From Arcuatula senhousia (lineage: Eukaryota > Mollusca > Bivalvia > Mytilida > Mytilidae): a DNA stretch of 64,000 nt. The stretch lies in contig OZ020304.1 in assembly GCA_963971305.1 (NCBI GenBank), positions 79,174,355 through 79,238,354 on the forward strand. Reading direction: 5' to 3'. Below the pieces are notes generated by a model, which did no database searches, had not been told where the DNA came from, and saw only the letters and a program-made list of their open reading frames with translations. Below are positions 3,607 to 55,502 of this stretch, piece after piece (the stretch's first letter is position 1; every line of letters starts with the position of its first letter). Position numbers and translations under genes: made by a program.

Positions 3607-14239
<10,633 letters not shown>

Positions 14240-22800: not shown

Positions 22801-25800
22801 TACCACACAACTTTTATGCGGCGGCGGGGGACACATGGCTACGTGTAGCAATCTTGTTTAAAATAAAGAGAAACAAATCCTGCCATGTGTTTACATTTCA
22901 AGTTTGTGTATCATTTTAAATGCCCATGGTTTGTCTGAAAACCTATCTTTATTTTGTTAAAGCAATACACTAATGTGTTCATTCACATACTTATTCAACT
23001 TTATGTAAAGTGGCCAATTAATCAAAGTTACAAGATTTACTAGTTATTTTGGCCTTTAAAATCAATAACTTCAAAGAAATAATCATTTCTTAATTGATTT
23101 CTTGAGTACAGTTCAAAGGTATTGTTCAGATGTCCCATAGCAATTAACTGCTCTTTAGATTAATCATGTTTTTACAACAATTAAATTGTTTGAATTGTTG
23201 TTGACACCTGTCATATTTACAACAGTTATATGATACCTGGGGATATATTGTGTATTGATTTTTTCTTATTTTGACATGTACTGGGGGTACCTTTTATCCT
23301 ATGTTTGCAAATAATCTGTATCTGTATCTGTGTGGGTACGTCGTAGACTACCAATTGATGGTCTCTTATACGACGGGCGCTAGGACGCATGTATTAGTCG
23401 CACTGACAGCAGGTATGGATTGCTGTCTTGAAGGCTGCCACTGTATTTGAGTTTACAATTTCGTTGGCTAGGTTGTTCCACTCTATAGCTGTTTTAACGA
23501 AAAACGAGTGTTTATAAGCTTCTGATCTTGCTTGTGGCACTATTACACTTTTGTTGTTCTTGCGTGATTGTCTTGTGATTATATTAATTGTTTCACAGTT
23601 GGCGTATGATGTTGGGCGGATCTGGCGTTTTCCTTGGTGTAGGTTTATGAATTCGGAAGCTGGTGTAGCTGGTACCTGCCCTTCCACCACCTTGTAGAAG
23701 AAGACAAGTCTTTGTTGTTTTCGTCTTTCTTCGAGTGGCTGGAGTTCTAGTTGTTCCATCATTTTGGCTATACATCCTTCTTCCCTGGATTTATAATCTT
23801 TGGTTATAAATCTCGCTCCTCGTCGTTGTATTCTTTCCAGTTGGTCAATGTCTTTCTTTAAATATGGGTCCCACACTATGGCGCCGTATTCCATGATGGA
23901 TCTTACTAAGGAGATGTAGGCGTTCTTTCTGCATTCTTTAGGGCAGTGTTGTAGGTTCCGCCGTAAGAATCCTAGTGTGGAGCTGGCTTTCTTTGCTATG
24001 TTGTTAATATGAGTATTCCATTTTAGGTCTTCTGATATTTGTAGTCCTAGGTATGGGTTGGTGTTAACTTGTTCAAGTATGTGGTTGTCCAGTTGGTAGA
24101 AATGGTGTTTCCTCTGTTTAATTGAGAGTATGTAGCATTTTTTAGCATTGAAACGCATGCCCCAGTCTGATGCCCATTTTTCTAGGTTTTTCAGGTCTTG
24201 TTGTAACATATGATGATCTTTTATGTTGTTGATTTCTCTGTAGAGCAGACAGTCATCGGCAAATAGTCTGACTTTAGAATTCACCGCTTCTGGTAGGTCA
24301 TTAATATGACAGAGAAATAGGATAGGTCCTAGAACAGTACCTTGCGGGACGCCGGAATCTACGTGGAGTTCTTTGGAGAATGTTCCTTCAATAGCTACTC
24401 TCATTTTCCTGTGCATTAGGAAGTTTTCCAGCCATTGTAAGATTGGTCCTCTGATACCATAACTGTCAAGTTTGTGAAGGAGTTTTTTTGATAATTGGGT
24501 TTTTAGCTATATTAAATGAAAGGGAGAATATCCATGTGTAAACAAACAATGCTTTTGATGCTTATTAAAACTTTATTTTCGGCAAAAATAAACTAAATAA
24601 GATTCTTAATTTTATTTCAAACAATAAATTCATTCTATAAATCGTTCTGAAAGGTAAGGGAAGTCTTGATTCTTCAGTTCAGCTGCATGTCTTGTTCAAT
24701 TTCTGGTCTGGAAAATATCTCGATCTTCCGATATCTCGCCTATAAGTCGGTACCCGTTCTTCAACTTGAATTTTACTCCTCAAAAATCCGACTTATACGC
24801 GCGTATATACGATACCTTGACATTCGTATTTGAATTTGTCTTTTCCAGATTTTTATTTCCATTTAAGAATTTGTATTAATGATTACATCTTACTGTCTAT
24901 CTTTTTACTAATTGCATTGGATGAGTGGTCGCTCCTAAAATATATATAACCAGAATAATTAAACTAACTGTGTTTTATTATACCCCCACTCGTAAGAGAG
25001 GGGGCTATATTGCAATCACCTTGTCCGTCCGTCCGTCTGTCCGTCCGGTTCAATTTCTCTGCTTCTATTGGATGGATTGGTTTCAAATTTGGTACACAGC
25101 TTCAGCATGATGAGTTATACTATGCCTACCCTTTCCAGGTCAGTCCATCATCTACTTCCTGTTTTCCAAGCCGACTTAGACTTTTTTAGGGGGAAAAAAA
25201 TTGAAATGTGAAATTTTTCGTAACAGATTTCTTGGCTTCTATTGGATGGATTGGTTTTAAATTTGGTACACAGCTTCAGCATGATGAGTTATACCGTGCC
25301 TCCCCTTTCCAGGTCAGTCCATCATCTACTTGCCGTTATTAGAGCCGACTTAGACTTTTTAGGGTAAAAAATTTGAAAAGTGAAATTTTGGTAACAGATT
25401 TCATGGCTTCTACTGGATGGATTTGTTTCAAATTTGGTACACAGCTTCAGCATGATTATTTATACCGTGCCTCCCCTTTCCATGTCAGTCCATCATCTAC
25501 TTCCTGTTTTCTGAGCTGACTTAGACTTTTTATGGGTCAAAAATAGACAATATTTCGTAACAGATTTCTTAGCTTCTAGAGAAGGGATTGATTTCAAATT
25601 TGGTATACAGCTTTAGCATGATGAGTTGTATCGTGCCTCCCCTTTCCAGGTCAGTCAGTCATCTTCTTCCTGTTTTCTGAATGGCCGAGTGGGGGTATGC
25701 TTAGCACGACTTAGTGCAACCCCTTGTTGATATTCACTTTGGTACTTTAGTTTTAGAATTTATGTGACAAATCTTTTCAGCCCAGTAAAGCTAGTAAGAA

Positions 25801-41866: not shown

Positions 41867-42300
41867 ATAAACAAGACATACATGTACCAGCCCTGGGGCT
41901 ATGGTCTAAGCAACTGAAATCATGCCATGTGATCTTGACCGTATTGTCATGCTTAAACGACCCAGTGAACTTAGGTATAGCTTGCGTTCCACATTCAAAC
42001 CCAGGGAGTCCCAGGTAGGAAAATGTCGCTCACTAGGGGCAGAACGAGAACAACCCGGGTAATGATGTATGGTAAACCTAGTTTGTTCCAAATGTACACT
42101 TTTGTTTAAAAAGATCATTGACCCATACAAAACAAAGGTCACCTGCATTCTATTTTATATTTCAACCCAGGAAAAAAATCCCAGGCTGCCTAGGGAAGGA
42201 ATTTCGAATGCGCCCCTTAATTGGTAGTGTAAACTTTTATGAAAGACTTTTAAGGATTAAATAAATGAGGGACTTGGATTTTTGGATCTACAGAATTTTG

Positions 42301-42486
42301 TGTAACCGGAGAGCATGAATTACTTCACAAAATCGACATGTCCTGAGCGGGATTCGATCCCGGGACCTCTAGGTTTACAGTCAGGCGCTCTACCTCTGAA
42401 CCAAAGAAGTACTTCCCTTGTTCAGGGATAAAGGCTGGCTATTTAAATCTACTAATTAATGTACGAAGGGGGGCAACCCCGTTACA
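42301..42486 (-). repeat. TRIM 3' LTR (with tRNA-like segment)
   Basis: 186-bp terminal repeat, identical to the copy at 42595-42780. The tRNA-like part lies at about 42345-42412 on the minus strand. It has an A-box-like GGTTCAGAGGTAGAGCG, a B-box GGATCGAATCC, and the segment CCTGACTGTAAACC between them. The acceptor stem does not pair well, so it is a tRNA-derived promoter rather than a functional tRNA gene. Confidence 0.88.
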
Positions 42487-42499
42487 CTTCCCCCTCCTC
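42487..42499 (-). promoter_or_regulatory. Polypurine tract of the TRIM
   Basis: Minus-strand GAGGAGGGGGAAG abuts the 3' LTR directly, as expected of a plus-strand primer in an LTR retroelement. Confidence 0.75.
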
Positions 42500-42582
42500 A
42501 AGAGTCATCATACCTTCATGTATGACTCTTAACACAACTAACACTGGCTAATTTTCCTGTTCTAACCATCGTGGGTTTTTTA

Positions 42583-42593
42583 GTTGGGCGCCA
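42583..42593 (-). promoter_or_regulatory. Primer-binding site of the TRIM (tRNA-Lys type)
   Basis: Minus-strand TGGCGCCCAAC begins one base after the 5' LTR. TGGCGCCC is the classic start of lysine-tRNA primed PBSs in gypsy-like elements and retroviruses. Confidence 0.75.
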
Positions 42594-42594
42594 A

Positions 42595-42780
42595 TGTAAC
42601 CGGAGAGCATGAATTACTTCACAAAATCGACATGTCCTGAGCGGGATTCGATCCCGGGACCTCTAGGTTTACAGTCAGGCGCTCTACCTCTGAACCAAAG
42701 AAGTACTTCCCTTGTTCAGGGATAAAGGCTGGCTATTTAAATCTACTAATTAATGTACGAAGGGGGGCAACCCCGTTACA
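42595..42780 (-). repeat. TRIM 5' LTR (with tRNA-like segment)
   Basis: 186-bp terminal repeat, apparently 100% identical to the 42301-42486 copy; its tRNA-like segment is at about 42639-42706 on the minus strand. The minus-strand primer-binding site (42593-42583) follows it. Confidence 0.88.
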
Positions 42781-43454
42781 TTTGAAACAGTGATCAGTAG
42801 TTTTACTTTGATTCTTACATTTAGTTTATGTTATTTACATATAAATGACGTAGTGTTTTAAACTTCAACACATCCTGTTACAGATTTACATAATAAGGGT
42901 GATTTAAGCTGTCAAATCTGCATGCCAAAATTCACTTGTGGTTGTAAAAGTTGTCTTCCCTTTTCTGAATTATAACCGGTGTTAGTACAAAAAAAATAAA
43001 GGATCGTTTTCGTTTTCTGATAAAATACTTTTTAATTGGAAACAATACTATCAAATGTATTGTTTGTCCAATTTTCATTTTGATTTATTGAACACACAGA
43101 AGAATATTATTTATTATTTGTAAATTAATGAGCCATAAAAATTTTTATCTTCACCGGTAAGAAGGGGAAGTAACCAGGAAAAATATTGACGAACGTGTCA
43201 ATGCTGTGAAAAATGACTTTAAAACAGTTTATAGTGATTAGATAGGTTGAGTTAAATTAAATTGGTGAAAAAATAAGTTTATACCAGATTTTTATCACCA
43301 CAGCATGTTATAAAGTGTGCCATTAATTGTGCAAGTGACAGTCGGAAAACCCATCTGCCAGAACTTTCCATATTGCACTATTTGTTTACATTTAATCAGC
43401 AGATATTTTTTAAGTTACTTTGTCAATTTTCAGAAGTCGTATTTCTTTCAGTAA

Positions 43455-55502
<12,048 letters not shown>

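Follow-up and report, generated by a model that had tools for sequence, protein, structure and literature searches.

A 480-bp element on the minus strand of the window is a TRIM, a miniature LTR element, and belongs by its structural features to the recently described Helenus group; a few copies of its family carry pieces of tRNA-Lys(CTT) joined to the LTR end, which indirectly point to this tRNA as the reverse-transcription primer. The window is the whole 64-kb stretch of DNA analysed here (C2:79174355-79238354), and searches were run over the 1.04-Gb genome. Our joint explanation, which we hold to be very probably correct, is a non-autonomous Helenus-type TRIM with a proposed Pol III start, mobilisation by a Gypsy-like element and priming by tRNA-Lys(CTT).

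The element in the window and its genome-wide family

The element occupies positions 42301-42780 and is made up of an LTR of 186 bp, an interior of 108 bp and a second LTR of 186 bp. Its 5' LTR (42595-42780, minus strand, as are all parts of the element) and 3' LTR (42301-42486) both run from TGTAACGGGG to CCGGTTACA with TG...CA ends and are identical at 186/186 positions. Between them lies the interior (42487-42594), a segment that was found again genome-wide. A one-base spacer (T) separates the 5' LTR from the 11-nt PBS TGGCGCCCAAC (42583-42593), which complements host tRNA-Lys(CTT) at its 3' end, as given by the tRNA loci, together with the added CCA, and the PPT GAGGAGGGGGAAG (42487-42499) abuts the 3' LTR. 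The insertion is flanked by a TSD of TTTG (plus strand, 42297-42300 and 42781-42784). The repeats, PBS, PPT, interior and flanks were all as the first-pass annotation had described them from the sequence. Despite its identical LTRs, the window copy has two interior substitutions that are rare in the family, at position 44 (C in 40 of 41 other copies) and position 52 (G in 39 of 41). A blastn search with the element as query found no second copy in the 64-kb window. Downstream lies what we take to be SRP54, judged by inspection of 26 protein letters at 43492; the first-pass annotation had suggested that the element could influence its promoter.

Copies were collected genome-wide with the LTR as query (1022 first-look candidates, a provisional number, of which the best 40 were scored, giving 43 matches) and with the interior (467 candidates, also provisional, best 40 scored). 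The census was taken from loci L001-L078, with repeats of one insertion merged by their flanks, and is biased towards close relatives, since such searches favour the best matches. It comprised 56 distinct insertions, parsed as 40 complete, 8 solo LTRs and 8 partial. Counting complete and solo insertions together, 43/48 had an exact 4-bp TSD (35/40 complete, 8/8 solo) and 5 lacked a perfect one; mismatched flank pairs, used as a control, agreed in 19/2256. The PBS was intact in 46/48 interiors and the PPT in 45/48, and LTR pairs were identical in 7 of the 40 complete insertions. With the same layout found genome-wide, the element in the window is not a chance structure.

The repeats could in principle be a tandemly duplicated SINE, as each contains a tRNA-like promoter, and the first-pass annotation had named this reading for the case that only the tRNA-like part was conserved while PBS and PPT varied. 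That pattern was not seen: copies occurred genome-wide as flanked pairs and as solo LTRs with 4-bp TSDs, and PBS and PPT were conserved with them. Repeats of the kind a tandem SINE would leave, lacking an LTR-type PBS and PPT, TSDs and solo copies, were not what the census returned, and the by-products primed by tRNA described below speak against a SINE as well. The TSDs, the PBS and PPT and the solo LTRs together exclude it, leaving it practically no chance; the window element is a TRIM.

Two large copies, L025 (2.5 kb) and L019 (4 kb), were considered as autonomous partners and rejected, being TRIMs split by other insertions. Insertions within TRIM copies, perhaps DNA transposons, were seen at L019:2061-5603, L025:1873-3842 and L049:206-1416, with short inverted ends that are plain in L019, present in L049 and less clear in L025. 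L014, on a chromosome-size contig (C1), and L015, on a small one (C835), hold one TRIM insertion with the same flanks and are probably two haplotypes.

In 2024, TRIMs whose LTRs resemble tRNA were described under the name Helenus, within a proposed TRIMp3 group, and they include 51 bivalve families (Kojima, PMC10886601). The first-pass annotation had proposed a tRNA-bearing analogue of Cassandra in an animal; the tRNA-like LTRs were borne out, but the group to which they belong had already been described. Compared with the published families by description only, the window family is a member of Helenus: it has two LTRs around a short non-coding interior, a length of 480 bp (below ~1.3 kb and inside the published range of 311-1263 bp), a PBS and a PPT flanked by the LTRs, solo LTRs, the 4-bp TSD of animal Helenus, a tRNA-Lys PBS as in some bivalve families, and tRNA-like A and B boxes in each LTR (scores given below) (PMC10886601). 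It differs in the support for its primer, which comes from captured tRNA here and from PBS complementarity in the earlier work (PMC10886601). One genome's well-sampled member is thus added to the group, and which tRNA primes Helenus, so far an inference in the field, becomes for this family a near-direct observation. The Helenus paper is mentioned in the available part of a later meeting report (PMC12859917).

Cassandra of plants is likewise a miniature LTR element with a piece of a small-RNA gene, and so a Pol III promoter, in its LTR, but the piece is 5S rRNA and not tRNA (per PMC10886601). Another animal TRIM, biv-TRIM, resembles the window family, in the available text of its description, in its repeats of 202-218 bp, short interior, PPT and solo repeats (Satovic 2019, PMC6934838). 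It differs in that the same text gives a PPT of GGGGAGA, no unambiguous canonical PBS, and no tRNA-like LTR among the features reported (PMC6934838).

The tRNA-like segment of the LTR

Each LTR contains a tRNA-like segment (42641-42697 in the 5' LTR and 42347-42403 in the 3' LTR, minus strand). In the 5' LTR it includes the A-box-like (42680-42696) and B-box-like (42644-42654) stretches that the first-pass annotation had noticed, starting at LTR positions 85 and 127. The tRNA covariance model gave the window LTR a sub-threshold 18.7 bits (E 0.45; gathering score 29) over model positions 8-63 of 71, a match that excludes the acceptor stem. A variant copy, L104, reached 28.8 bits in its 5' LTR, which has the B box GGTTCGAGTCC; this match, also below gathering, was truncated at the 5' edge of the piece searched. 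The B-box consensus is GGTTCGANTCC, from which the window B box GGATCGAATCC deviates. No match at E up to 1 was obtained with the model on L061, L065 and L067, ARAGORN called no tRNA in the window, L001, L031 or L066, and the RNA of the tRNA-like part folded no better than shuffles (z 0.11). The boxes are present and the model matched, but with scores short of gathering. Given the weak match, the absence of an ARAGORN tRNA and the shuffle-level folding, the segment resembles the remnant of a promoter more than a tRNA; a tRNA gene with a full cloverleaf in the LTR is ruled out by the ARAGORN result and the fold.

When the tRNA-like segment was used as query, all 27 places examined (among the best 40 of 923 candidates) lay within LTRs of the family. 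Conservation was measured on 84 LTRs and 41 interiors, after the window copy and repeat loci, 11 loci in all, had been dropped. Mean minor-allele frequency was 0.020 in the tRNA-like part, 0.023 at LTR positions 21-83 and 0.010 over the last 16 LTR positions, so that across these 84 LTRs the tRNA-like part showed no special conservation relative to its flanks. The motif GATTTTG was present in 89/95 full LTRs. A TTTT that is a candidate weak Pol III terminator lies 28 nt past the B-box start in the 5' LTR (42623-42626, minus strand) and at the matching position in the 3' LTR (42329-42332); T4 runs gave no signal of avoidance (1 observed, dinucleotide-shuffle mean 1.5).

We propose that the TRIM is probably transcribed by Pol III. 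A Pol III start upstream of the A box would have the TTTT of the 5' LTR read through, and the RNA might terminate at the TTTT of the 3' LTR, with R repeated. The chance-level number of T4 runs and the unexceptional conservation of the segment speak against this scheme. The tRNA-like segment might instead be vestigial, with inert A and B boxes and Pol II transcribing from the TATA-like box TTTAAATAG at LTR position 40, and the weak tRNA score, the lack of extra conservation and the T4 runs that are not avoided would all suit that reading. We consider it rather unlikely, as neither AATAAA nor ATTAAA occurs in the LTR or interior, the A/B-box region is retained in the copies compared (84 LTRs), and a sister family (see below) has A/B-box-like stretches, read by eye, at the same place in its LTR. 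Conservation of the boxes has, moreover, been reported for fungal and animal Helenus (PMC10886601), and Pol III remains our preferred reading.

Captured primer tRNA and the mismatch at nt 58

The LTR end and PBS, followed by a base other than T, occurred at 23 places genome-wide and at none in a reversed control. Eighteen of these were family interiors, some truncated or rearranged, with no tRNA complement. The other five (L098, L101, L104, L109 and L110) run on as GTGG..., which is absent from the element's own interior, and extend the tRNA-Lys complement beyond the 11 nt that the element itself matches.

The segment captured in L113, an apparent LTR element of another kind as judged by its PBS register and an upstream AATAAA, was used as query and gave 17 places, all of which were scored: 14 tRNA-Lys loci and 3 long captures, namely L101 and L104 of the window TRIM family and L113 itself. 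The tRNA-Lys loci form two groups (C2:28.90-29.13 Mb and C6:47.46-47.49 Mb), and ARAGORN assigned 10 of them, but not the other 4, to tRNA-Lys(ctt); L125, L126 and L138 turn T-rich after the anticodon or D-arm region, and some look like pseudogenes. The long captures start with TGG, the complement of CCA, and match 50 to 53 nt beyond it, past the anticodon, whereas none of the 14 matching genomic loci has the TGG. Mature tRNA, in PBS register, is thus their source, and it is in this indirect way that the captures show tRNA-Lys(CTT) as the probable reverse-transcription primer on the 11-nt PBS.

L104 is a whole element with a TSD of AGTA, in which the capture lies between the 5' LTR and a second LTR end with PBS. 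The junction falls at TCATGCTCT, the last nine letters of the capture, which occur in the LTR end too and may derive from either. The two LTRs of L104 have different B-box types, which would follow from the involvement of two templates. L098, which lacks the LTR start and carries 16 nt of tRNA complement, and L101, whose LTR has a deletion, show no TSD and may be strong-stop DNA inserted by end joining.

Neighbouring tRNA genes or pseudogenes, or relics of an ancestral longer PBS, might also account for the captured pieces, given that tRNA-Lys loci are grouped on two contigs and that retroviruses have an 18-nt PBS (PMC13191261, in its available part). Against this, all three long captures open with the CCA complement in exact PBS register, which the 14 loci lack, and the L104 capture sits inside a single insertion flanked by AGTA. 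One capture is found in a different apparent LTR element (L113), and a longer PBS does not predict that nt 58 differs from all 14 loci in 3/3 captures. We regard both versions as improbable and read the pieces as captured primer.

Most copies keep TAAAAAA after the 11-nt match and not the tRNA's GTGGGGC, interior positions 13-19 differing in no more than 2% (41 copies). Ty1 and Ty3 inherit their PBS strictly and HIV and MLV copy the tRNA, according to the available part of a review (PMC7472051); by analogy, PBS inheritance in the TRIM would be Ty1/Ty3-like, with rare retrovirus-like exceptions.

The exact 18-nt Lys PBS occurs at 6 places in the genome, 3 of them TRIM by-products and 3 apparent LTR elements (L112-L114) with LTR ends that differ from the GTTACA of the TRIM. 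Neither these places nor the large copies L019 and L025 yielded an autonomous partner.

Against the tRNA loci, L101 and L104 have two mismatches each and L113 has one, and the only mismatch position common to all three is the nucleotide that we take to be nt 58 in tRNA numbering; L101 and L104 thus have one further mismatch each. Opposite nt 58, the tRNA loci have T in 14/14 cases, against A, C and C in the captures (in L113, at L113:189-241, minus strand, C within ~50 nt of captured tRNA-Lys). Given the mismatch numbers, the chance that all three captures would include nt 58 is ~3e-5, and that of any one common site is ~0.0015 (0.04 x 0.038); the latter is the fairer figure because nt 58 was noticed after seeing the data. 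In retroviral primer tRNAs, A58 is m1A, which blocks pairing and sets the normal end of plus-strand strong-stop DNA (PMC13191261, available part), and m1A58, when passed, reads as misincorporation (PMC11417395, available part).

The fold-back copies L109 and L110 run from an LTR through TGGCGCCCAACGTGGGGC into an inverted copy of the LTR end, where GGGC at the strand end can pair with GCCC over a six-letter loop. The reverse LTR copy extends for 24 nt in one and up to 82 nt in the other (two mismatches allowed) and is followed by a forward LTR; neither has an interior, and the TSDs are CACC (L109) and GGTT (L110). These copies contain 14-18 nt derived from the tRNA, a range that allows for an origin of the last four letters in fold-back copying. 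The tRNA part accordingly stops at or before nt 59, consistent with, though no proof of, a halt before A58.

We propose that TRIM RNA starts in the 5' LTR, probably at the internal A/B-box (Pol III) promoter, and would be packaged and copied by proteins of a Gypsy-like element. Mature tRNA-Lys(CTT) primes reverse transcription on the 11-nt PBS, and plus-strand DNA copies the LTR and part of the tRNA, two steps that the captured pieces show indirectly; plus-strand copying would normally halt before the methylated A58. Two rare failures may follow: A58 is misread and copying runs on for ~50 nt, or the strand ends by nt 59, folds back on GGGC/GCCC and copies the LTR in reverse. Some failure products were still integrated, with TSDs. 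That TRIM copies archive tRNA priming and modification in this way, with mature tRNA-Lys(CTT), 11-nt pairing, an m1A58 block and run-on and fold-back by-products, we consider probable.

The proposal resembles retroviral plus-strand strong-stop synthesis, with its stop before m1A58 and read-through when the base is unmodified (PMC13191261, available part). In HIV-1 the primer is tRNA-Lys,3, studied in vitro and in cells (PMC13191261, same part), whereas here tRNA-Lys(CTT) takes its place and the traces are integrated in a genome, within a TRIM and a further apparent LTR element. Our results suggest that m1A58, the plus-strand stop of HIV-1, may also have marked a retrotransposon primer in this host. 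If so, screening genomes for such junctions could read the primer identity of LTR elements and A58 modification without biochemistry, by the searchable signature of an LTR end, the CCA complement and a tRNA complement with the wrong base at nt 58. Among titles and the starts of abstracts, from a literature with few subscription journals, we found no captured primer tRNA or self-primed inverted LTRs in integrated elements, and the term self-priming occurs in the available parts of PMC4668388 and PMC10085805; captured primer tRNA in integrated elements may thus be a new observation.

Sister family, interior hairpin and neighbouring features

An interior of 73% similarity within L030 revealed a second, more diverged TRIM family in the genome. 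A search for it gave 455 candidates, of which the best 40, first-family copies among them, were scored. Of 12 loci parsed, 5 had a repeat pair of at least 136 bp, 5 a shorter pair and 2 none. Shared between the two families are the interior and, in variant forms, TGTAAC at the LTR start and CATGCTCTCCGGTTACA at the LTR end; the LTR middle of the sister family differs, being swapped or diverged. Its tRNA-likeness rests on A/B-box-like stretches read by eye because the tRNA model gave no match at E up to 5 (10 loci, 31 kb). A Hammerhead type I ribozyme (36.5 bits, gathering 34) was found at L090:1724-1767 (minus strand), near a sister-family copy.

The interior of the window element is predicted to fold into a hairpin, AAGAGTC...GACTCTT (42498-42531, minus strand). 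In 18 chosen copies its folding z ranged from -6.6 to 0 against mononucleotide shuffles, from -6.6 to -4.8 in the first family (10 copies) and from -5.6 to 0 in the sister family (8 copies). The weakest hairpins were those of L090 and L083, both of the sister family, and the inner pairs differ. A function such as a packaging or dimer signal would be a guess.

Elsewhere in the window, an RNase MRP RNA gene (135 bits) lies at 49866-50112, reverse transcriptase ORFs (RVT_1), by their look non-LTR retrotransposons, lie at 11241-12577 and 23394-24506, and a reading frame of tandem repeats, in units of 16 protein letters, lies at 54402-55085, all on the minus strand.
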